From contig PMHO01000045.1 of NCBI GenBank assembly GCA_003156715.1, positions 14,754 through 78,753 on the forward strand: a stretch of DNA of 64,000 nucleotides. Reading direction: 5' to 3'. The stretch comes from Candidatus Tityobacter terrigena (lineage in GTDB: Bacteria; Vulcanimicrobiota; Vulcanimicrobiia; Vulcanimicrobiales; Vulcanimicrobiaceae). The translations under genes were made by a program, and so were the position numbers. Below the pieces are notes generated by a model. The model did not search any database. It saw only the letters and a list, made by a program, of their open reading frames with translations, and was not told the DNA's origin. Positions 34,594-47,736 of this stretch are shown one piece after another. The number at the start of each line of letters is the position of its first letter. The stretch's first letter is position 1.

Positions 34594-36951
34594 TTACGCT
34601 CCGGAGTCGCGAATCGCGCGCCACACCTTCTCGCGGGTGAGCGGCATATCGATGTGCTTGATGCCGAGCGGCGCAAGCGCGTCCATCACCGCGTTGACGA
34701 AGGCCGCGGGCGAGCCGACGTTGGGGGATTCGCCCACACCCTTCGCGCCGATCGGATGGTGCGGACTCGGCGTCACCGTGTTGCCCGTTTCCCAGGCCGG
34801 CGTCTCGAGCGACGTCGGCAGGAGGTAGTCGGTGAAGTTTGGGTTGAGATGATTGCCGTTCTCGTCGAAGGTGATCTCCTGCATGAAGGCGATAGCGAAA
34901 CCTTCGGTTAGGCCGCCATGGATTTGCCCCTCGACGATCATGGGGTTAATCACCGTTCCGCAGTCGTCGATCGCGACGAAGCGGCGCACCTTGGTCGCCC
35001 CGGTCGCGCGATCGACGTCGACCACGGCAACGTACGCACCGTGTGGGAACGTCATGTTGGGCGGATCGTAGTAGTACGTCGCCTCGAGGCCTGGTTCGTT
35101 GCCGGGACCAGGGTTGGTATAGGCGGCGAAGGCGATCTCCTTCATGCCGATCGTTTTCCCGGGCACGCCTTTGACTTGGAACTTGTAGTCGATCCAGTCG
35201 ATGTCGTCCTCTGCCGCTTCGAGCAGATGGGCCGCGACCTTGCGCGCCCGTTCCCGAATGCGTTGCGCGGCCTTGACGAGCGCGGCGCCGGCGACCGGCG
35301 TGCTGCGGCTTGCATACGTTCCCAAACCGTAGGGCGCGGTATCGGTATCGCCCTCTTCGACGCGCAGGTTTTGCGGGTCGAGCCCGAGCTCTTCGGCGAC
35401 GATCTGCGCCCAGGTCGTCTCGTGACCTTGGCCTTGATGTCGCGTTCCCGTGCGCACGATCCCGGAGCCGGTCGGGTGGATGCGGATCTCGGCGCTGTCG
35501 AACATCTTGATGCCCATGATGTCAAACAGTCTGCCGGGGCCGGCGCCCACGACTTCGGTAAAGGTCGAGAGACCGATGCCCATCAGCTCGCCGCGCTGAC
35601 GCCGTTCGGCTTGCTCGCGCCGCAGATCTGTGTAGCCGATGCGATCGAGCGCCTTGCGCAAGGTCGTCTCGTAGTCGCCGCTGTCGTACTCGAAGCCGAG
35701 CGGCGATTGGTACGGGAACTGTTCTTTCTTGAGGAAGTTCAGGGAACGCAGCTCGGCCGGATCCATCTTCAGCTCGCCGGCGAGCAGATCCATTCCGCGC
35801 TCGATCGCGTACGACGCTTCGGTAACCCGGAACGAGCAGCGATACGCGATACCGCCGGGCGCCTTGTTGGTGAAGTACGCGTCGAGTTCCGTGAACGCGA
35901 CCGGAAAATCGTACGAACCCGTAACGACGCCGAACATGCCGGCCGGATACTTGGTCGGGTCGGCGGCCGCGTCGAAAGCACCGTGGTCGGCAACGGTCGT
36001 TACCTTGAGTGCGGTGAGCTTCCCGGCCTTGCTCGCGCCGATCTCGACGTCCATGTGGTAGTCGCGCGCGAAGCCGGTCGTCGTCAGATTCTCGGTGCGC
36101 GTCTCAACCCACTTAACCGGTACGCCGAGCACCACCGACCCGACCGCCGAGACGACGTAGCCGGCATAGACGGGCACCTTGTTGCCGAATCCGCCGCCGA
36201 TGTCCGGCGAGATGACGTGAATCTTGTCCTCCGGGATGCCGGTGACGAGCGAAACCACCGTGCGATGCGCGTGCGGCGCCTGCGAGGTCAGGTACAGCGT
36301 CAGCCGTCCGCTGGCGCCGTTCATGTCGGCGATCGCACCGCACGGTTCGAGCGGCGCGGGATGGCAGCGTTGGAAGTAAATCCGCTGCTTGACCTTCACT
36401 TCCGAGCTAGCCAGGGCCGCATCGGCCTCGGCCCGCTTGCCGACCTCCCAGTGATAGATGTGGTTCGTCTTGTTTTCACGGTCGTCGCGCAGGATGTTCC
36501 CGTCGCGCCTGGCGACGAACGGATCGACGATCGGGTCGAGCTGCTCGTATTCGACGACGACGAGTTCGGCCGCATCGTTCGCAATTTCGCGCGACGTCGC
36601 CACCACGCCGGCGACCTCTTGGTATTGATAGAGCACTTTGCCGACGGCGAGCACCATCTGCTTGTCGTAACCGTGGAACGTCGGAATCCACGCCAGGCCG
36701 GCTGCCGTCAGGTCTTCGCCGGTGAGCACGGCCTTCACGCCGGGAACGGCGAGGGCTGCACTCTTGTCGATCTTGACGATGCGGGCATGCGCGTACGGAC
36801 TATGGACGATCGCCAGATGCAGCATGTTCGGCAGGACGATGTCGTCGAGGAAGCGCCCGCGGCCTTGGATCAGTCGCGGATCTTCCTTGCGCTTCATCGA
36901 CTGGCCGACCGAGTGGCGCGCCTTGGGTTCGGAGTCGCTGGTGATGCTCAT
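34594..36951 (-). CDS. coxL: Form I aerobic CO dehydrogenase large subunit
   Basis: 785 residues, the molybdopterin-binding catalytic subunit that oxidises CO to CO2. The active-site loop is AYRCSFR at residues 369-375, with Cys372 as the copper-sulfur ligand; this motif marks form I enzymes, whereas form II has AYRGAGR. Other cofactor motifs are GGGFGNK, HQGQGHETTWAQI and KGVGESPNVGSP, the last with the catalytic Glu. The length matches known CoxL (about 800). The operon order is coxM-coxS-coxL-xdhC-coxD-coxE with short gaps or overlaps. Confidence 0.95.
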   Translation of the reverse strand: MSITSDSEPKARHSVGQSMKRKEDPRLIQGRGRFLDDIVLPNMLHLAIVHSPYAHARIVKIDKSAALAVPGVKAVLTGEDLTAAGLAWIPTFHGYDKQMVLAVGKVLYQYQEVAGVVATSREIANDAAELVVVEYEQLDPIVDPFVARRDGNILRDDRENKTNHIYHWEVGKRAEADAALASSEVKVKQRIYFQRCHPAPLEPCGAIADMNGASGRLTLYLTSQAPHAHRTVVSLVTGIPEDKIHVISPDIGGGFGNKVPVYAGYVVSAVGSVVLGVPVKWVETRTENLTTTGFARDYHMDVEIGASKAGKLTALKVTTVADHGAFDAAADPTKYPAGMFGVVTGSYDFPVAFTELDAYFTNKAPGGIAYRCSFRVTEASYAIERGMDLLAGELKMDPAELRSLNFLKKEQFPYQSPLGFEYDSGDYETTLRKALDRIGYTDLRREQAERRQRGELMGIGLSTFTEVVGAGPGRLFDIMGIKMFDSAEIRIHPTGSGIVRTGTRHQGQGHETTWAQIVAEELGLDPQNLRVEEGDTDTAPYGLGTYASRSTPVAGAALVKAAQRIRERARKVAAHLLEAAEDDIDWIDYKFQVKGVPGKTIGMKEIAFAAYTNPGPGNEPGLEATYYYDPPNMTFPHGAYVAVVDVDRATGATKVRRFVAIDDCGTVINPMIVEGQIHGGLTEGFAIAFMQEITFDENGNHLNPNFTDYLLPTSLETPAWETGNTVTPSPHHPIGAKGVGESPNVGSPAAFVNAVMDALAPLGIKHIDMPLTREKVWRAIRDSGA

Positions 36952-36961
36952 GCGTCTGCTC

Positions 36962-37459
36962 CTACGAAACGGCGACGGGTTCGGCGACGGGCTCAGCCGC
37001 CAGTTCGCCCGCCGCTTGCTGCACGGCCTTGACGATGTTTTGGTAACCCGTGCAGCGGCACAGATTGCCGGAGAGCGCTTCGCGAATCTCGCCTTCGCTC
37101 GGGTGCGGGTTCTTTTTCAGGAACGCTACCGAGGTCAGCATCATGCCCGGCGTGCAGAAGCCGCACTGGAGCCCATGGCAGTCCCAAAACGCTTGTTGCA
37201 ACGGGTGCAGCTTGCCGCCTTGCGCGAGCCCCTCGACGGTCGTGATCTCGTGCCCGTCGGCCATCACGGCGAACATCGTACACGATTTGACCGCGCGCTC
37301 GCCATCGAACAGCACGACGCAGCAACCGCAACTCGAGGTATCGCACCCGACATGCGTGCCCGTAAGGCCGAGCTCTTCGCGCAGGAAGTATGCCAGCAGC
37401 ATGCGCGGCTCGACGTCGCGTTCGAACGCCGTGCCGTTGACCGTCAACGCGACCTTCAT
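36962..37459 (-). CDS. coxS: CO dehydrogenase small [2Fe-2S] subunit
   Basis: 165 residues. N-terminal plant-type [2Fe-2S] site (CDTSSCGCC and a fourth Cys in KSCTMFAV), and C-terminal [2Fe-2S] domain ([25 protein letters not shown]). It carries electrons from the molybdenum site in CoxL to FAD in CoxM. The ATG at 37459 overlaps the coxM stop as ATGA. A short C-terminal repeat of [10 protein letters not shown] is unusual. Confidence 0.95.
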
Positions 37460-38337
37460 GCCATTCCTCCAACTCCTAAGCGTTCGAGCGCCGACACCAG
37501 CGCGCGGGCGACGAGCACGCCCGCCATCTCTTTCTTGAACTCGGCCGAGCCGCGCGTGTCGGAACCGGGGTCGGCCTCCTTGCGGGCGGCGTCGGCGGCC
37601 GCACGGATGACGTCCTTGCTCGGCTTCGCGCCACGCAGCAGCTGCTCGGCCTCGGAAACGCGCAGCGCTTTCGCTCCGACGGCTCCGATCGCAACGCCGG
37701 CCTCGGCGATCGCGCCGGAGGTGTCGAGCGTGAGCTGAACCGCCGCCGAGGCGGTTGCGAAATCGCCGACCTTGCGCTCGAGCTTGGCAAACGCGCCGGA
37801 CGTGTGCTCGGAAGGACGCGGAAACTGCACTTCCAACGCCATTTCGTTCTCGGCCAACGCCGTCGTGAAGGAGTCGACCAAGAAGTCGTCCGCCGAAAGC
37901 GTGCGCGTTCCGGCGGGCCCTCGCACCACGATCTGCGCTCGCCCGGCTAACGCTGCGACGCCCCAGTCGCCCGCCGGATCGCTGTGGCAAATACTGCCGA
38001 CGACCGTCCCACTTTGGCGGACGACCGGGTCGGCAACGAGCACCGAGACGTCAGCGATCATCCGATAACCGGAGGTGACGAGCTCGGAGGTCTCCAGGGC
38101 GGCATCGCGCGTGCCCGCCCCGATCAGCAAGCTTCCGCCGGTTTCGCGCAGATAGCGCAAGTCGTCGATCGCATTGATGTCGATCAGCACCGACGGCCGG
38201 GCCAGCCGAAAACGCATTGCCGGAATGAGGCTTTGTCCGCCCGCCAGGATTCGCGCCTCGCCGCCGTGTTGCGCTAGCGCCGCGACGGCTTCGTCGGTCG
38301 AGCTCGCGCGAAGGTAGTCGAATCGTGCTGGGAACAC
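37456..38337 (-). CDS. coxM: CO dehydrogenase medium FAD-binding subunit
   Basis: 293 residues. The two FAD-binding loops are AGGQSLIP near residue 32 and [15 protein letters not shown] near residue 112 (usual form TIGG), followed by the CODH FAD C-terminal domain ([18 protein letters not shown]). First gene of the minus-strand cox operon. An inverted repeat lies 15-34 bases upstream of the start (38352-38371). Confidence 0.94.
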
Positions 38338-41865: not shown

Positions 41866-43569
41866 ATGAATGACGAGTACGTCCTTGCCGGCGACGACGC
41901 GATCGAAACGCCGCTCTGCGGCCTCGAACTGCTCAACACGCCCCTGCTCAACAAGGGGACGGCGTTCACGGAGTCCGAGCGCGACGCGTTTCGCCTGCAT
42001 GGCCATCTGCCGCCGCATATCGGTACCCTTGAGGGCCAAGTGCAGCGGCGGATCGTGGCGATGCGCGCGCTCGGCACCGACTTCGACCGCTACGTTTTTC
42101 TGCGCGGCTTGCAGGATGCGAACGAGACGCTCTTTTACGCTTTGCTCACGCAGTACATCGACGAGCTCAATCCGATCGTTTACACCCCGACGGTCGGGCT
42201 CGCGTGCCAGCAGTTCAGCCACATCTACGCGCGGCCGCGCGGGCTTTTCCTGAGCTATCCGCACCGCGACAAAATCGACGCGATTCTGGCCGAGCACTTT
42301 TTCGACCGGGTGCAAGCGATCGTGGCCACCGACGGCGAGCGCATTTTGGGGCTCGGCGATCAGGGCGCGGGCGGCATGGGAATCCCGATCGGCAAGCTCG
42401 CGCTCTACACCGCCTGTGCCGGCATTCATCCGGCCGCGACGCTTCCCATCATGCTCGACGTGGGCACGGACAACGCGGAACGCTTGGCGGATCCGCTCTA
42501 CATCGGGTGGCGCCACGAGCGGGTTCGCGGCCAAGACTACGACGATTTTCTCGACGCGTTCGTTAGCGCGGTGCAGCGCCGTTGGCCCGGTGCGCTGCTC
42601 CAGTTCGAGGACTTCGCACGCAACAACGCGGGGCGTCTGCTCGAACGCTACCGCGACCGTTTGCTCACCTTCAACGACGACATCCAAGGAACCGCGGCCG
42701 TGGCGGCCGGGACGCTGCTTGCGGCCATCAACGTGACGGGAAAGCCGCTAGCCGAGCAGCGGATCGTCATCTTCGGAGCGGGCTCGGCCGGCTGCGGCAT
42801 CGCCGCGCTGCTGCGCCGCATGATGCTTTCGCAAGGCATGAGCGAGGCGGAAATTCGCACCCGCTTCTTTGCCGTCGATTGGAACGGGCTGCTGGTCGAG
42901 GGCGACAAAGATTTGCAACCGTTCCAAGCGCCGTTCGCGCAGCCCCGAGCCGCCGTCGCCGGCTGGCGGCCCGAGGGAGAACCGATTGAGCTCGCCGATG
43001 TCGTCGAGCACGCCAAGGCGACGGTGTTGATCGGCGTCTCCGGTCAGCCCGGCACGTTCACCGAACGGGTCGTCCGGGCAATGGCCCGCTCCTCCGAACG
43101 ACCCATCATCTTTCCCCTCTCGAACCCGACCGCGCGCAGCGAAGCCACCCCCGAGGATTTGCTCGAATGGTCGGGCGGACGTGCGATCGTCGGCGCGGGA
43201 AGCCCCTTTGCGCCGGTGACGCGCGACGGAAAAACGATCAAGATCGATCAGACGAATAACTCGTACATCTTTCCGGGAGTGGCGCTCGGGGCGCTCGCCG
43301 CGGAGGCACGGCGCATCAGCGACGGCATGTTCGAGGCCGCCGCGCTTACGCTGGCCGGCCTCTCACCGGCCAAAGCGGACACATCGGCGACGCTCGTGCC
43401 GCCGATCCGCGACCTTCGCCAGGTCGCCCGCTCGATCGCCGAAGCCGTCGCCAAGAAAGCGCGTGACGAGGGCCTGAGCGATCCGCTCTCCGACGACGAG
43501 ATCGTGGCGCGCATCGACCACAAGATGTGGACGCCCCGCTACCGGCCCATCCGGCCTCCGCAGGAATAG
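41866..43569 (+). CDS. NAD-type malic enzyme
   Basis: 567 residues. It shows NPIVYTPTVGLACQQFSHIY (N-terminal malic domain), TDGERILGLGDQGAGGMGIP (substrate/catalytic region), FNDDIQGTAAVAAGTLLAAI (metal and substrate), FGAGSAGCGIAALL (NAD Rossmann) and FPLSNPTARSEATPEDLLEW. Full length for the large malic-enzyme family. The SD GAGGAG precedes the ATG. It converts malate to pyruvate and CO2. Its stop is followed within a few bases by the serine-recombinase remnant. Confidence 0.95.
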   Translation: MNDEYVLAGDDAIETPLCGLELLNTPLLNKGTAFTESERDAFRLHGHLPPHIGTLEGQVQRRIVAMRALGTDFDRYVFLRGLQDANETLFYALLTQYIDELNPIVYTPTVGLACQQFSHIYARPRGLFLSYPHRDKIDAILAEHFFDRVQAIVATDGERILGLGDQGAGGMGIPIGKLALYTACAGIHPAATLPIMLDVGTDNAERLADPLYIGWRHERVRGQDYDDFLDAFVSAVQRRWPGALLQFEDFARNNAGRLLERYRDRLLTFNDDIQGTAAVAAGTLLAAINVTGKPLAEQRIVIFGAGSAGCGIAALLRRMMLSQGMSEAEIRTRFFAVDWNGLLVEGDKDLQPFQAPFAQPRAAVAGWRPEGEPIELADVVEHAKATVLIGVSGQPGTFTERVVRAMARSSERPIIFPLSNPTARSEATPEDLLEWSGGRAIVGAGSPFAPVTRDGKTIKIDQTNNSYIFPGVALGALAAEARRISDGMFEAAALTLAGLSPAKADTSATLVPPIRDLRQVARSIAEAVAKKARDEGLSDPLSDDEIVARIDHKMWTPRYRPIRPPQE

Positions 43570-43572
43570 CCG

Positions 43573-43720
43573 TGCGGCCGGCCCCCGTGTCGATGTGGTC
43601 GGTCGGTCAGCGATCGCAGCGTCACGTCGCGCTCGCGTAACATTTCGCCAATATCGAGAAGGTCTCGCAGCGACCATCCGAGGCGGTCGAGCCGCCAGAC
43701 GGTGCGACCAGGGTTTCGCC
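43573..43720 (-). pseudogene. Serine recombinase fragment, copy 1 (left flank of island)
   Basis: On the minus strand the remnant reads RLDRLGWSLRDLLDIGEMLRE followed by RDVTLRSLTD, the part of the resolvase/invertase catalytic domain around the conserved RLDRL motif. Frames change near both ends. About 85 percent identical by eye to copy 2 at 46461-46613, in the same orientation. Confidence 0.75.
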
Positions 43721-43949
43721 GGGAGTGCTTATTTCATGTGGGCGGCTCACCTCGGGTAACCAGAGAGCACCACGGGATACGGCAAAATACGGGAGATAAG
43801 GGTTCCGGTGGGGCTCCAATGGGGCTCCGCCGAACTAACGCCGGGAGCGTAGAGCCAGGCGCTACGGGCCGGGTACGTAGGGCTCGTTTTAGATCGGGCG
43901 TCGGTTGGCTGGTTCTTGGCCGGGCCACGCGGGCGTGAAGGAGCAAAGG
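43721..43949. other. Leader region of the four-gene island
   Basis: 229 bases without a gene. It contains a tandem TGGGGCTCC (twice, 2 bases apart, near 43810-43830) and ends with the SD of the first island gene. Presumably it holds the promoter of the operon. Confidence 0.4.
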
Positions 43950-44408
43950 GTGTCAAACGACAGCGCATCAGGCGGCGGCGCGATTAAGCCGCAACCGAGT
44001 CAGGCGGTTCGGTTCGATCCGCTAACCCCGAGCGCGAACGCGGCGGTTTTCAGTTCGCTCTCCAAAGAGCAGCAGGACGTGCTCCTAATGGAATATATGC
44101 GTGGCAACCTCGACGTCGGCAAGAAGGCGGCTCAAATGCACGTCGACGTCGACGCGTTCAGGTCTGCGTTGGAGGTTATGTCGGCCAAGACGAGAGAGGT
44201 TTCGTCTCAAGAGGGTGTGTCGGTCCAATTCCAACACACGCAAGAGTCGTCATTCGGTAAGACCGAGGTCATTATGGGCAACACCGCTCAAGCTGCGAGC
44301 GGTAAGCTCACGCGCACGATGGCGAACGAACGGAATCTTACGCCGTTCTACTACATCGGCGGGATTATCGGGCTCTTAATTTTAGTTTCGCTTTTTATGC
44401 ACCACTAG
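43950..44408 (+). CDS. Island protein 1: tail-anchored protein with HTH-like N-terminal part
   Basis: 152 residues from the GTG at 43950, preceded by SD AAGGAG. Residues 30-75 (SSLSKEQQDVLLMEYMRGNL, then DVGKKAAQMHVDVDAFRSAL) look like a helical, HTH-like unit. A beta-rich middle (SVQFQHTQESSFGKTEVIM) follows, and the protein ends in one membrane helix (FYYIGGIIGLLILVSLFMHH). Such topology predicts a cytosolic domain anchored by its C-terminus. No family recognised. First gene of the four-gene operon. Confidence 0.65.
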   Translation: MSNDSASGGGAIKPQPSQAVRFDPLTPSANAAVFSSLSKEQQDVLLMEYMRGNLDVGKKAAQMHVDVDAFRSALEVMSAKTREVSSQEGVSVQFQHTQESSFGKTEVIMGNTAQAASGKLTRTMANERNLTPFYYIGGIIGLLILVSLFMHH

Positions 44409-44410
44409 CG

Positions 44411-44704
44411 TTGCTGAAGTCTCGGATCTTCGTCAATCAAAGCACGGACGTGGAGCACGAGGTTCGTAGTCTAGAGAGCCTGGCTCGAAAACACTCGCTC
44501 GACGACGCGACAACGGACGCTCTGATTGCCGAGGCGCGCGGGCTGCTAGCGGACTTTTGCCAAACCGCCATCGACGCTGCGAACGGTCATTTTAGCGCGG
44601 AGATCAGTAAGACGATCAAAGGCCCGAAATACGAGGTCGCGTTCGTGCTGCGGCAAGAGCCATTGCCCAAGCGCGGCGGGATCATGAGTCTCTTCAGGCG
44701 GTAG
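44411..44704 (+). CDS. Island protein 2: small soluble protein
   Basis: 97 residues from a TTG at 44411, only 2 bases after the previous stop, so translation is probably coupled. It has an N-terminal helical part (EHEVRSLESLARKHSLDDAT, DALIAEARGLLADFCQTAID), then a short beta part (KGPKYEVAFVLRQEPLPKRG), and a basic C-terminus (MSLFRR). No known family; no membrane helix. Confidence 0.6.
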   Translation: MLKSRIFVNQSTDVEHEVRSLESLARKHSLDDATTDALIAEARGLLADFCQTAIDAANGHFSAEISKTIKGPKYEVAFVLRQEPLPKRGGIMSLFRR

Positions 44705-44713
44705 TCGCATAGC

Positions 44714-45526
44714 GTGCCTTATTACGGATATGGGAGGCGTTGGCGAAGCTACCCGCGGCGGGAGTACAGCAGCTTTTCGAGAGACGTAAGCAATATGGAC
44801 GCTGTCGTGAAGGCAGCGTTCTTCGCTCTCCGTGCTTCGGATCGAACGAAGCTCTTTCGCAGATACGAGCGAGAGTATGGCAAGGGCGCGTGCTCTTACG
44901 CAAAGCAGACCATCGCAAAGTGGGAACACGGCCACGTTAAGATGAGCGAAGAGATCTCAAAGCGTCTCTTCAAACTCTTGCCACCGCTTATGAGTGTCGA
45001 GGACAAGTACAACATCGTCGAAGCGATCTGGAAAAAGCACAGCACGCTAGCGCGGTCGCTCAAATACGTTCGGATTGGCCCCGATGTTAACCCTGAGTCG
45101 GTGCTCCATGCGATAGGCGTCTATTTTGACGGCCTGAACATTCAGCACGCGATCCCCGAACGGCTTGCCGGTGAGTTTCAGTGGCTGGCGGCCGAAGACG
45201 TGGCCGTCAAGCAACAGCTCCTCAACCACTTCATGCTTGAACAGCGGCGGACAGCGATGGCGAACGCGGCGCTAAATCTCGATATGCTGCTGCGCGCTCT
45301 TCAGTCGGACACCGAAGCGCTGATTACGACGTTTTCGCATACGATTATCACGGGTGAGCATCAGGTCGAAATCGTTGCCGAACGCTCGCGCTCTGGGTTC
45401 ATCTTTAGCGATCTGCGACAAGACCCGCCGAAGCCACCTGAGCCTACGGTTCTCGAAAGGTTCTCTGGGTTTCTTATCCTCGCGCTAATAATCGCCGGCA
45501 TCTTCGCTTTCTGCGTGCCGCATTGA
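44714..45526 (+). CDS. Island protein 3: tail-anchored protein of unknown function
   Basis: 270 residues from a GTG at 44714, 9 bases after island gene 2. The N-terminus is Tyr/Arg-rich (PYYGYGRRWRSYPRREYSSF), followed by a long helical domain (AAFFALRASDRTKLFRRYER, TIAKWEHGHVKMSEEISKRL, FKLLPPLMSVEDKYNIVEAI). A later piece LITTFSHTIITGEHQVEIVA resembles, weakly, the beta parts of proteins 1 and 2. It ends with a single membrane helix (FSGFLILALIIAGIFAFCVP). No family recognised. Confidence 0.65.
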   Translation: MPYYGYGRRWRSYPRREYSSFSRDVSNMDAVVKAAFFALRASDRTKLFRRYEREYGKGACSYAKQTIAKWEHGHVKMSEEISKRLFKLLPPLMSVEDKYNIVEAIWKKHSTLARSLKYVRIGPDVNPESVLHAIGVYFDGLNIQHAIPERLAGEFQWLAAEDVAVKQQLLNHFMLEQRRTAMANAALNLDMLLRALQSDTEALITTFSHTIITGEHQVEIVAERSRSGFIFSDLRQDPPKPPEPTVLERFSGFLILALIIAGIFAFCVPH

Positions 45527-45560
45527 CGCTTGCGATGATGCTATACGCTCTAAGCGAACC

Positions 45561-46181
45561 GTGCCCGTGACGCGTCGACGCAATTACACGTACGCCGCAC
45601 AGAAGCGTCGTCGCACAACACTCGTGCGGAGTTTCGTCGTGCTCACCGTTTGCATCGCGGCTGCGGTCGGCGCGTTTTTCGTAATGCATCCCATCTCTGA
45701 AGTAAGGAGAGCGGTTGCGACGCATCTTACCGAGCCGTCGTTAGGGAGTGCGTCAGCTGTTCCGGTTGAGATGTCGAGCGAGCTACAAGACGCGAAGCTG
45801 ACGCCCGGTGCAGTAGCGACCACGGACGTGAAACTCGTGTGCAGCCCTGGCTACGCCTCGAACGTTCGTCCGCGCGGAGCTTTGTGGAAATCGCTTAAAG
45901 CCGAAGCTTACGCGCGATACGGAATACCGCCTGGCCACCGGAGCGACATCGATGCGGCGGGCGTGCACCATCCTGCGTATCAGGTCGACCACTTGATACC
46001 GCTAGAAATCGGCGGCGATCCGACGAGCTTAGAGAACATATGGCCGCAACCGACTGTGGAAGCCGAGATAAAGGACCACGTAGAGAACAAACTTCACGAG
46101 CTTGTATGCAGCGGGCAAATGCCCATCGGCGTCGCGCAGCAGCGGGTTAGGGACAATTGGACGACGGCGGTCGAAAAGTGA
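45561..46181 (+). CDS. Island protein 4: membrane-anchored HNH nuclease-like protein
   Basis: 206 residues. A strongly basic N-terminus (RRRNYTYAAQKRRRTTLVR) precedes one membrane helix (SFVVLTVCIAAAVGAFFVM). By the positive-inside rule the rest lies outside the cytoplasm. The C-terminal domain is an HNH nuclease type: YQVDHLIPLEIGGDPTSLEN followed by IWPQP and KDHVENKLHELVCSGQMP, with the DH, the E/N metal residues and the two Cys typical of this group. GTG start at 45561 (a second GTG two codons later is possible). It is last in the operon. Confidence 0.8.
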   Translation: MPVTRRRNYTYAAQKRRRTTLVRSFVVLTVCIAAAVGAFFVMHPISEVRRAVATHLTEPSLGSASAVPVEMSSELQDAKLTPGAVATTDVKLVCSPGYASNVRPRGALWKSLKAEAYARYGIPPGHRSDIDAAGVHHPAYQVDHLIPLEIGGDPTSLENIWPQPTVEAEIKDHVENKLHELVCSGQMPIGVAQQRVRDNWTTAVEK

Positions 46182-46460
46182 GCGCGGGTTCGTCCGGACT
46201 ATGCATGCGCTGCATGGCTATGCGGCCTGAAAATTGCGCCACGAGGGATACTACCTCACGATTCTCGTGTTCCATGACCTAAAGGGCTGTCAGTTAGGGC
46301 GTTATCGCGGCCCCGGCGTCTTTCGCTGATCGCGCGCGGTCTCAGCGAAATCCTGGGGACGAAGCTCACGGCGTTTCTCGCCGGCGCTCGCCGCGTGATC
46401 ATGGGCGAAGCTCCGAATCGCGCCTGGCCGCGCTCTACGACCCGGCGCCGAGCACCGCGT
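46182..46460. other. Non-coding stretch after the island operon
   Basis: About 280 bases with decayed recombinase-derived sequence towards the right end; I see no intact gene and no clear terminator. Confidence 0.4.
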
Positions 46461-46613
46461 AGAGCATCCGGCCGGCGGCCGTTCCCGTGTCGATGTGGTT
46501 GGTCAGCGATCGCAGCGCGACGTCGCGCTCGCGTAACATTTCGGCAATATCGAGAAAGTCTCGCGGCGACCGACGGAGGCGGTCGAGCCGCCAGACGACC
46601 AAGGTGTCGCCGG
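46461..46613 (-). pseudogene. Serine recombinase fragment, copy 2 (right flank of island)
   Basis: Minus-strand reading AGDTLVVWRLDRLRRSPRDF, then LDIAEMLRERDVALRSLTNH and IDTGTAAGRMLYAVLGAGS before a stop. This is the RLDRL-to-RML part of a resolvase/invertase catalytic domain; the N-terminal catalytic Ser and the DNA-binding HTH are missing. It starts directly beside the dodecin stop codon. Confidence 0.8.
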
Positions 46614-46614
46614 C

Positions 46615-46926: not shown

Positions 46927-47736
46927 ATGCAGCAAGCGAACGCAGCCCTGTACGGTTTCGAACAAGAGGTACTTACCTGCGCTGGTCCGGCTGCGCATAT
47001 GGTGCAACTCTACGAATCGGACGACCGCCTGCTCGTTCGTAATGCAGGGCGCTACTTTGCCGAAGGTTTCGGACGGGGCGATCGCGGCTTGATCGTCACG
47101 ACCGAGGAGCGCGCCGAGGCCTTTCGCCGCGAGTTCGGGCGGCTCGGCATCGACGCAGCGGCTGCCGTACGCGACGAGCGGCTTACGTTCTTCGATTCAC
47201 ACCAGACGCTGGCGCGAATTTTGGTCGACGGCTACCCCGATGCGGCACGCTTCGACGAGATCGTCGGTGCGGCGTTGCGACGCCTCGTCGCAAGCAACGA
47301 GAGCGGCGCTTTGCGCGCGTACGGTGACATGGTCGGCACCCTCTGGACGGCACGGCAGTTCCCGTCGGCGATCCGGCTCGAACAGCTCTGGGGCAAACTG
47401 CTGGCGCAGGTTCCGTTCAGCTTATTTTGCGCTTACTCGATCGACCTCTTCGGTACGGATTTCGAGGCGGGGGTCGTCGATGCGTTGCTTTGCGCGCACT
47501 CGCATTTCTTGCCGGCGGGGTCGAACGCGACGCTGCAGAGCGCGCTCGGGCGGGCGATGGAAGACGTGCTAGGCGCAAAGGTTGCGAGCTTGCCTGCGGT
47601 CAAGCTCGAACGGCGTCCAGCGTGGCCCGAGCTGCCGCGCGCCGAGAGCCTGATCCTCTGGCTAAAAAAGAACCTGCGCGACCAAGCCGGCGACATTTTC
47701 GTTCGAGCCCGGCAGTATTATCAAGAAACGGCTTAG
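46927..47736 (+). CDS. MEDS (DcmR sensory) domain protein
   Basis: 269 residues: AAHMVQLYESDDRLLVRNAG, YFAEGFGRGDRGLIVTTEER, LWGKLLAQVPFSLFCAYSID, which is the MEDS fold seen in stress-signalling proteins and RsbR-type sensors. It has no output domain. It faces a PAS-SpoIIE phosphatase gene tail-to-tail, and with the STAS and anti-sigma genes in the window suggests a partner-switch network. The ATG at 46927 was chosen as the first start after the upstream promoter space. Confidence 0.82.
   Translation: MQQANAALYGFEQEVLTCAGPAAHMVQLYESDDRLLVRNAGRYFAEGFGRGDRGLIVTTEERAEAFRREFGRLGIDAAAAVRDERLTFFDSHQTLARILVDGYPDAARFDEIVGAALRRLVASNESGALRAYGDMVGTLWTARQFPSAIRLEQLWGKLLAQVPFSLFCAYSIDLFGTDFEAGVVDALLCAHSHFLPAGSNATLQSALGRAMEDVLGAKVASLPAVKLERRPAWPELPRAESLILWLKKNLRDQAGDIFVRARQYYQETA

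Follow-up and report, generated by a model that had tools for sequence, protein, structure and literature searches.

The 64,000-nucleotide stretch analysed here (the window) comes from contig PMHO01000045.1 of Candidatus Tityobacter terrigena and carries, between genes for malic enzyme and dodecin, a compact block of four genes termed P1 to P4. Judged by gene order across genomes, the conserved core of this block is the three genes P1-P2-P3 (the trio), while the fourth, which encodes a putative HNH nuclease, is optional; on the same comparison the trio moves horizontally between phyla as a unit. The best explanation, to which we assign a probability of about 40%, is a mobile inner-membrane cassette of defence type with an interchangeable outward-facing part, of which the HNH nuclease would be one version.

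Distribution and mobility of the trio

All four genes lie on the forward strand: P1 at 43,950..44,408 (152 residues, GTG start), P2 at 44,411..44,704 (97 residues), P3 at 44,714..45,526 (270 residues), and the HNH gene P4 at 45,561..46,181 (206 residues). The preliminary description had given this single-strand layout, the spacing of 2, 9, and 34 bases between genes, and the position between malic enzyme and dodecin, all of which are exact, the dodecin gene being identified by Pfam. A Shine-Dalgarno sequence, AAGGAG, can be read ahead of P1 at 43,938..43,943 on the forward strand, and the P1 start at 43,950 matches that of the homologue in G014, one of two related genomes that also carry the trio. 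No sigma-70-like promoter was found at the locus, which is uninformative as the promoter type of the host may differ. When the window is compared with G014, the ratio of nonsynonymous to synonymous divergence (dN/dS) comes to 0.14 in P1 and 0.19 in P4; against the second genome, G055, it is 0.16 for P1 and 0.21 for P3. For P2 and P3 the comparison with G014 is saturated at synonymous sites, with nonsynonymous differences (pN) of 0.25 and 0.33. All four open reading frames are thus real genes under purifying selection; they are not chance frames, because their homologues are under such selection and three of them are found again, with their order kept, in a second phylum.

Profile searches with P1 and with P3 find the same 3 genomes among 149 of the host phylum and no others, and these represent three genera of the window's own family with the trio in the same gene order. 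No relatives of P1 or P3 were found in viral contigs, phage records, or E. coli genomes. The fourth known locus, from the plasmid search, is a Vibrio harveyi plasmid typed as conjugative, where the trio has the same order and the same tail-anchored layout and is followed by no fourth gene. Here, the proteins have 140 (P1), 86 (P2), and 274 (P3) residues, the genes overlap by a few bases, and both tail helices are kept. The Vibrio P1 match is at 36% and covers 59% of the protein (E 2e-12); that of P3 is at 28% and covers 80% (E 4e-20).

Only two of the four loci, those of the window and G014, have the HNH gene after the trio. It had been proposed as part of the core system, a view that is not supported: G055 and the Vibrio plasmid carry the trio with no HNH gene behind it, and members of the HNH family are present, with no P1-P3, in ten more genomes of the phylum and 50 plasmid records. 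Conserved pairing in varied genomes, which had been named as evidence that would favour a system, extends to two genera but not to G055 or Vibrio. In G014, the order P1-P2-P3 is kept and P3 is split by insertion of a DDE transposase (L006, 1-2750; L007, 1-396), as expected for a dispensable gene. The HNH gene and the last part of P3 are on a second contig, and an overlap of 141 identical bases with the first suggests that the two join in the assembly graph. In G055, the trio is intact and P3 is 593 residues long, with about 310 residues past the membrane helix that can be read as three cysteine-paired repeats. The fourth gene of that locus encodes a 137-residue membrane protein that is not of HNH type; a phospholipase-D assignment was considered and dropped when no Pfam match was found. 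Directly downstream of the G055 trio lies a Gp49-like toxin and helix-turn-helix (HTH) antitoxin pair (L011:5458-6169).

Mobility is suggested by the surroundings of both the window and plasmid copies. Decayed serine-recombinase copies had been described at both ends of the window block, and they prove to be two direct copies of one fragment, at 43,569..43,722 and 46,471..46,613, both on the reverse strand and covering the same stretch in the same orientation. They agree at 84% across an alignment of 154 columns that contains 11 gap positions, including an ungapped core of 101 nucleotides at 91%, and are the only copies of this fragment in the genome; their assignment to the resolvase catalytic domain comes from translation. 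The guanine-cytosine (GC) content of the block is 55-60% as compared with 64-68% in the flanks. The malic enzyme gene is present in too few relatives for an empty-site comparison.

On the Vibrio plasmid, the end of the trio abuts an intact resolvase gene that runs towards it (Pfam Resolvase, E 1.5e-44), with insertion sequence (IS) elements on the other side, and the geometry is the same as in the window, where the cassette is on the forward strand and the recombinase remnant behind it on the reverse. The Vibrio trio is placed outside the tra region, in a cargo slot. Related plasmids carry the recombinase but not the trio: in V. harveyi pvh5 matching flanks hold a RelE/Phd pair and a HEPN gene in its place, and the neighbours differ again on further plasmids. 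On different Vibrio plasmids, the occupants of this slot beside the resolvase are toxin-antitoxin/HEPN genes, a GIY-YIG gene, chaperonins, or the trio (L015:6128-6721, L049-L053). A lone P3 relative is found on Thioalkalivibrio pTK9001, also typed as conjugative (L016:5887-6816), with neither P1 nor P2 nearby. In this protein a CFI-box-CTERM domain replaces the membrane helix, and the match scores 39.3 bits against a cut-off of 40.

The predicted membrane-anchored proteins and the putative HNH nuclease

P1 is made up of a helical domain and an invariant segment, G-S-V..H.Q..S.G.TE..MGNT..AA.G..RT, at 44,211-44,321, followed by a tail membrane helix at residues of about 130-152 (about 44,343-44,399); its homologues are those of G014, G055, and the Vibrio plasmid. 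P3 has a Tyr/Arg-rich N-terminus, a helical domain predicted to be cytoplasmic, and a β-hairpin, and ends in a membrane helix at residues of about 245-270 (about 45,449-45,511). P2 is small and soluble, with no membrane segment and a conserved C-terminal basic-hydrophobic tail (GIMSLFRR / PLLKRLFGG). Hydropathy (above 1.6) agrees with the preliminary description in placing one C-terminal helix in each of P1 and P3 and none in P2. These helices are kept in the window, G055, and Vibrio. The soluble parts of P1 and P3 are probably cytoplasmic, as expected of tail-anchored proteins.

Several candidate assignments for these proteins were rejected. The HET-s-related amyloid signalling motif is hydrophobic at positions 3, 6, 8, and 14 and has G at 17 (PMC5485727); no 21-residue stretch of any P1 fits this rule, and the invariant segment has no match in PDB or Pfam. 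P3 was considered as a degenerate HNH domain when one pairwise score beat 300 shuffles, but this was not repeated in other pairs or in a profile comparison and is attributed to chance. A membrane-proximal module common to P1 and P3 is indicated only weakly (hhalign E 0.005, probability 7%).

P4 fits its earlier outline of a basic N-terminus, one membrane helix, and an HNH motif, as judged by hydropathy and by family alignment. The helix spans residues of about 18-48 (about 45,630-45,686; hydropathy above 1.6), and the HNH domain, DH...N...KD..E, lies at about 45,987-46,085 and includes the motif YQVDHLIPLE...EN. The HNH score is below Pfam cut-offs (E 0.23 in the G014 copy). In an alignment of P4 with representatives of the HNH family from the phylum, the members covered at those positions all share DH, N, KD..E, and two cysteines. 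The HNH domain had been placed on the outer face of the membrane, a prediction that the charge rule and the conserved cysteines support; the basic N-terminus, the one membrane helix, and the family-wide cysteine pair, which fits an oxidised, extracytoplasmic protein, all point to a probable extracytoplasmic location.

By motif, P4 belongs to a widespread family of secreted HNH proteins, typified by DHLIPLELGG...NLWPQP...KD, whose members stand alone and are mostly annotated as hypothetical. It shares with them DH, N, KD..E, and the paired cysteines, but differs in its basic N-terminus, its uncleaved-looking membrane helix, and its place behind P3, whereas the usual members are solitary and have a signal peptide. 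In the ten further genomes of the phylum, the family lies in unrelated neighbourhoods and often has a signal-peptide-like start. The 50 plasmid records, found by tblastn, range from Streptomyces to Deinococcus; three of their neighbourhoods were inspected, of which one had no annotation. The members of the window, G014, and a further genome, G130, have in common an insert ahead of the DH motif. In G130 (L023, G130:C28, 1492-3161, reverse strand), the solitary HNH gene overlaps or directly follows the gene for a membrane-anchored protein, and the C-terminal β domain of that protein is similar to the extracytoplasmic tail of G055 P3 (E 6e-5). This arrangement gives a slight, independent indication that HNH enzymes of this kind may pair up with the outward-facing tail seen on some P3 proteins.

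It is also possible, if unlikely, that the block joins two unrelated neighbours: P1-P3 would form a mobile membrane module with a different role, and P4 would be an ordinary secreted nuclease that scavenges DNA. The wide and mostly solitary occurrence of the family, usually with a signal peptide, and the two trio loci without it point this way. Against it, the adjacency of P3 and the HNH gene is kept in two genera, those of the window and G014, where the two genes have diverged together to 51% and 58% identity.

A possible defence-type role and its rivals

The features taken to favour a mobile cassette of defence type are the recurrence of the trio in one order within the family and in Vibrio, the retained tail helices, its sporadic presence in 3 of 149 genomes, the drop in GC content, the recombinase remnants, the resolvase and cargo slot in Vibrio, the varying outer part, the transposase-split P3 of G014, and the purifying selection; of the roles considered, defence would be the most likely for the trio. 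The predicted outward-facing part varies from locus to locus: an HNH nuclease in the window and G014, a three-repeat fusion to P3 in G055, none in Vibrio, and a CFI-box tail in the Thioalkalivibrio P3 relative. P1 and P3, anchored by their tails, would hold their soluble domains in the cytoplasm, with P2 as a soluble partner docking through its conserved basic-hydrophobic tail. Such a complex might sense, or be triggered by, an invader at the membrane, whether entering phage DNA or an incoming plasmid, and P1 or P3 would then target either the membrane or the invader itself. As the trio persists without the HNH gene, the core action most likely resides in P1-P3. The nuclease, where present, could serve as an accessory effector, dispensable to the core, and break down incoming DNA in the periplasm. 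It is predicted to lie across the membrane from the P1 and P3 domains, so any cooperation would have to go through the membrane, which the P3 fusion of G055 suggests is possible for P3. The bolder claim, that the trio is the core of an undescribed cross-phylum inner-membrane defence system whose swappable extracytoplasmic effectors attack DNA in the periplasm before it reaches the cytoplasm, is doubtful.

Several points weigh against a defence role. The role of every part is predicted, mobility and sporadic spread would fit other cargo too, and only four trio loci are known from profile searches within the host phylum, a single scan of named genomes with a profile built on the three close copies, and the plasmid search. 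Defence-gene neighbourhoods had been expected around the trio; the toxin-antitoxin/HEPN slot in Vibrio is suggestive, but no defence genes were seen around the window copy. P1-P3 proper match no family in Pfam, PHROGs, PADLOC, NCBIfam, or PDB; PADLOC gives just two weak matches, both at E 0.019, one with a distant P3 and the other with the G055 P3 fusion. The AlphaFold2 model of P3 likewise has no structural match, although the models are weak (pLDDT confidence scores of 69.7 for P3 and a poor 53 for P1). The same searches agree with the earlier statement that no described system has this gene set, and no match of P3 to a housekeeping family, which had been named as a finding that would count against the proposed system, was obtained.

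Two further explanations are each rather improbable. The proteins may serve entry or surface exclusion or competition between plasmids, with membrane proteins of a conjugative element blocking a competitor and a periplasmic HNH enzyme helping to destroy transferred DNA. P3 relatives on two plasmids typed as conjugative and the membrane layout are in keeping with this, but no conjugation genes are visible next to the window, G014, or G055 copies, and the Vibrio trio sits in a cargo slot and not in the tra region. Alternatively, the trio may be addiction cargo resembling a toxin-antitoxin system, in which one tail-anchored protein harms the membrane while P2 and the other restrain it. The small, tightly linked genes, the RelE/Phd and HEPN genes filling the same slot on a related plasmid, and the Gp49-like/HTH pair just downstream of the G055 trio agree with such a role; three conserved genes with no recognised antitoxin-like DNA-binding protein do not, nor does the IS insertion in G014, which splits P3 and leaves the other genes in place. 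A decaying island with no current function, as the decayed recombinase remnants and the broken G014 P3 might indicate, is very unlikely given that all four window genes are intact and under purifying selection.

If the trio is indeed a defence module, it would add three protein families that present defence libraries miss, and, given its association with an outward-facing nuclease, three or four small genes would be enough to test whether invading DNA is intercepted in the periplasm. Otherwise, it is still a rare, unannotated cassette found both on a Vibrio plasmid and in the chromosome of an uncultured bacterium.

Known systems and neighbouring genes

The nearest idea in the literature is SNIPE, a membrane-bound GIY-YIG nuclease, by analogy with its action on entering DNA while held at the membrane (PMC13190303). 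P4 is likewise a predicted nuclease with a single-pass anchor and could act on entering DNA, but it is of HNH type, predicted to lie outside, separately encoded, and dispensable. Neither the DUF4041 domain of SNIPE (Pfam, PADLOC) nor a GIY-YIG domain on the same chain as the anchor (Pfam) was matched at the locus. SNIPE has a cytoplasmic nuclease domain; for P4, the basic N-terminus, single membrane helix, and family-wide cysteine pair suggest a location outside. By domain content, the block cannot be placed in SNIPE: DUF4041 is missing, the nuclease is of another type, and the layout is not single-chain.

More generally, no PADLOC model of a known anti-phage system is matched by P1-P3. Zorya is built on a ZorA/ZorB membrane complex, with the HNH nuclease ZorE in type II, and also combines membrane proteins and a nuclease in one operon. 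Among P1-P3, no ZorA or ZorB homologues were found by Pfam or PADLOC, and the window block differs in that P1 and P3 are single-pass, tail-anchored proteins and the HNH domain is predicted to be extracytoplasmic.

Elsewhere in the window, a protein with a MEDS (DcmR-type sensory) domain is encoded at 46,927-47,736, just past dodecin, and genes at 34,594-38,337 on the reverse strand resemble a set for the large and medium subunits of a xanthine/CO dehydrogenase-type enzyme.
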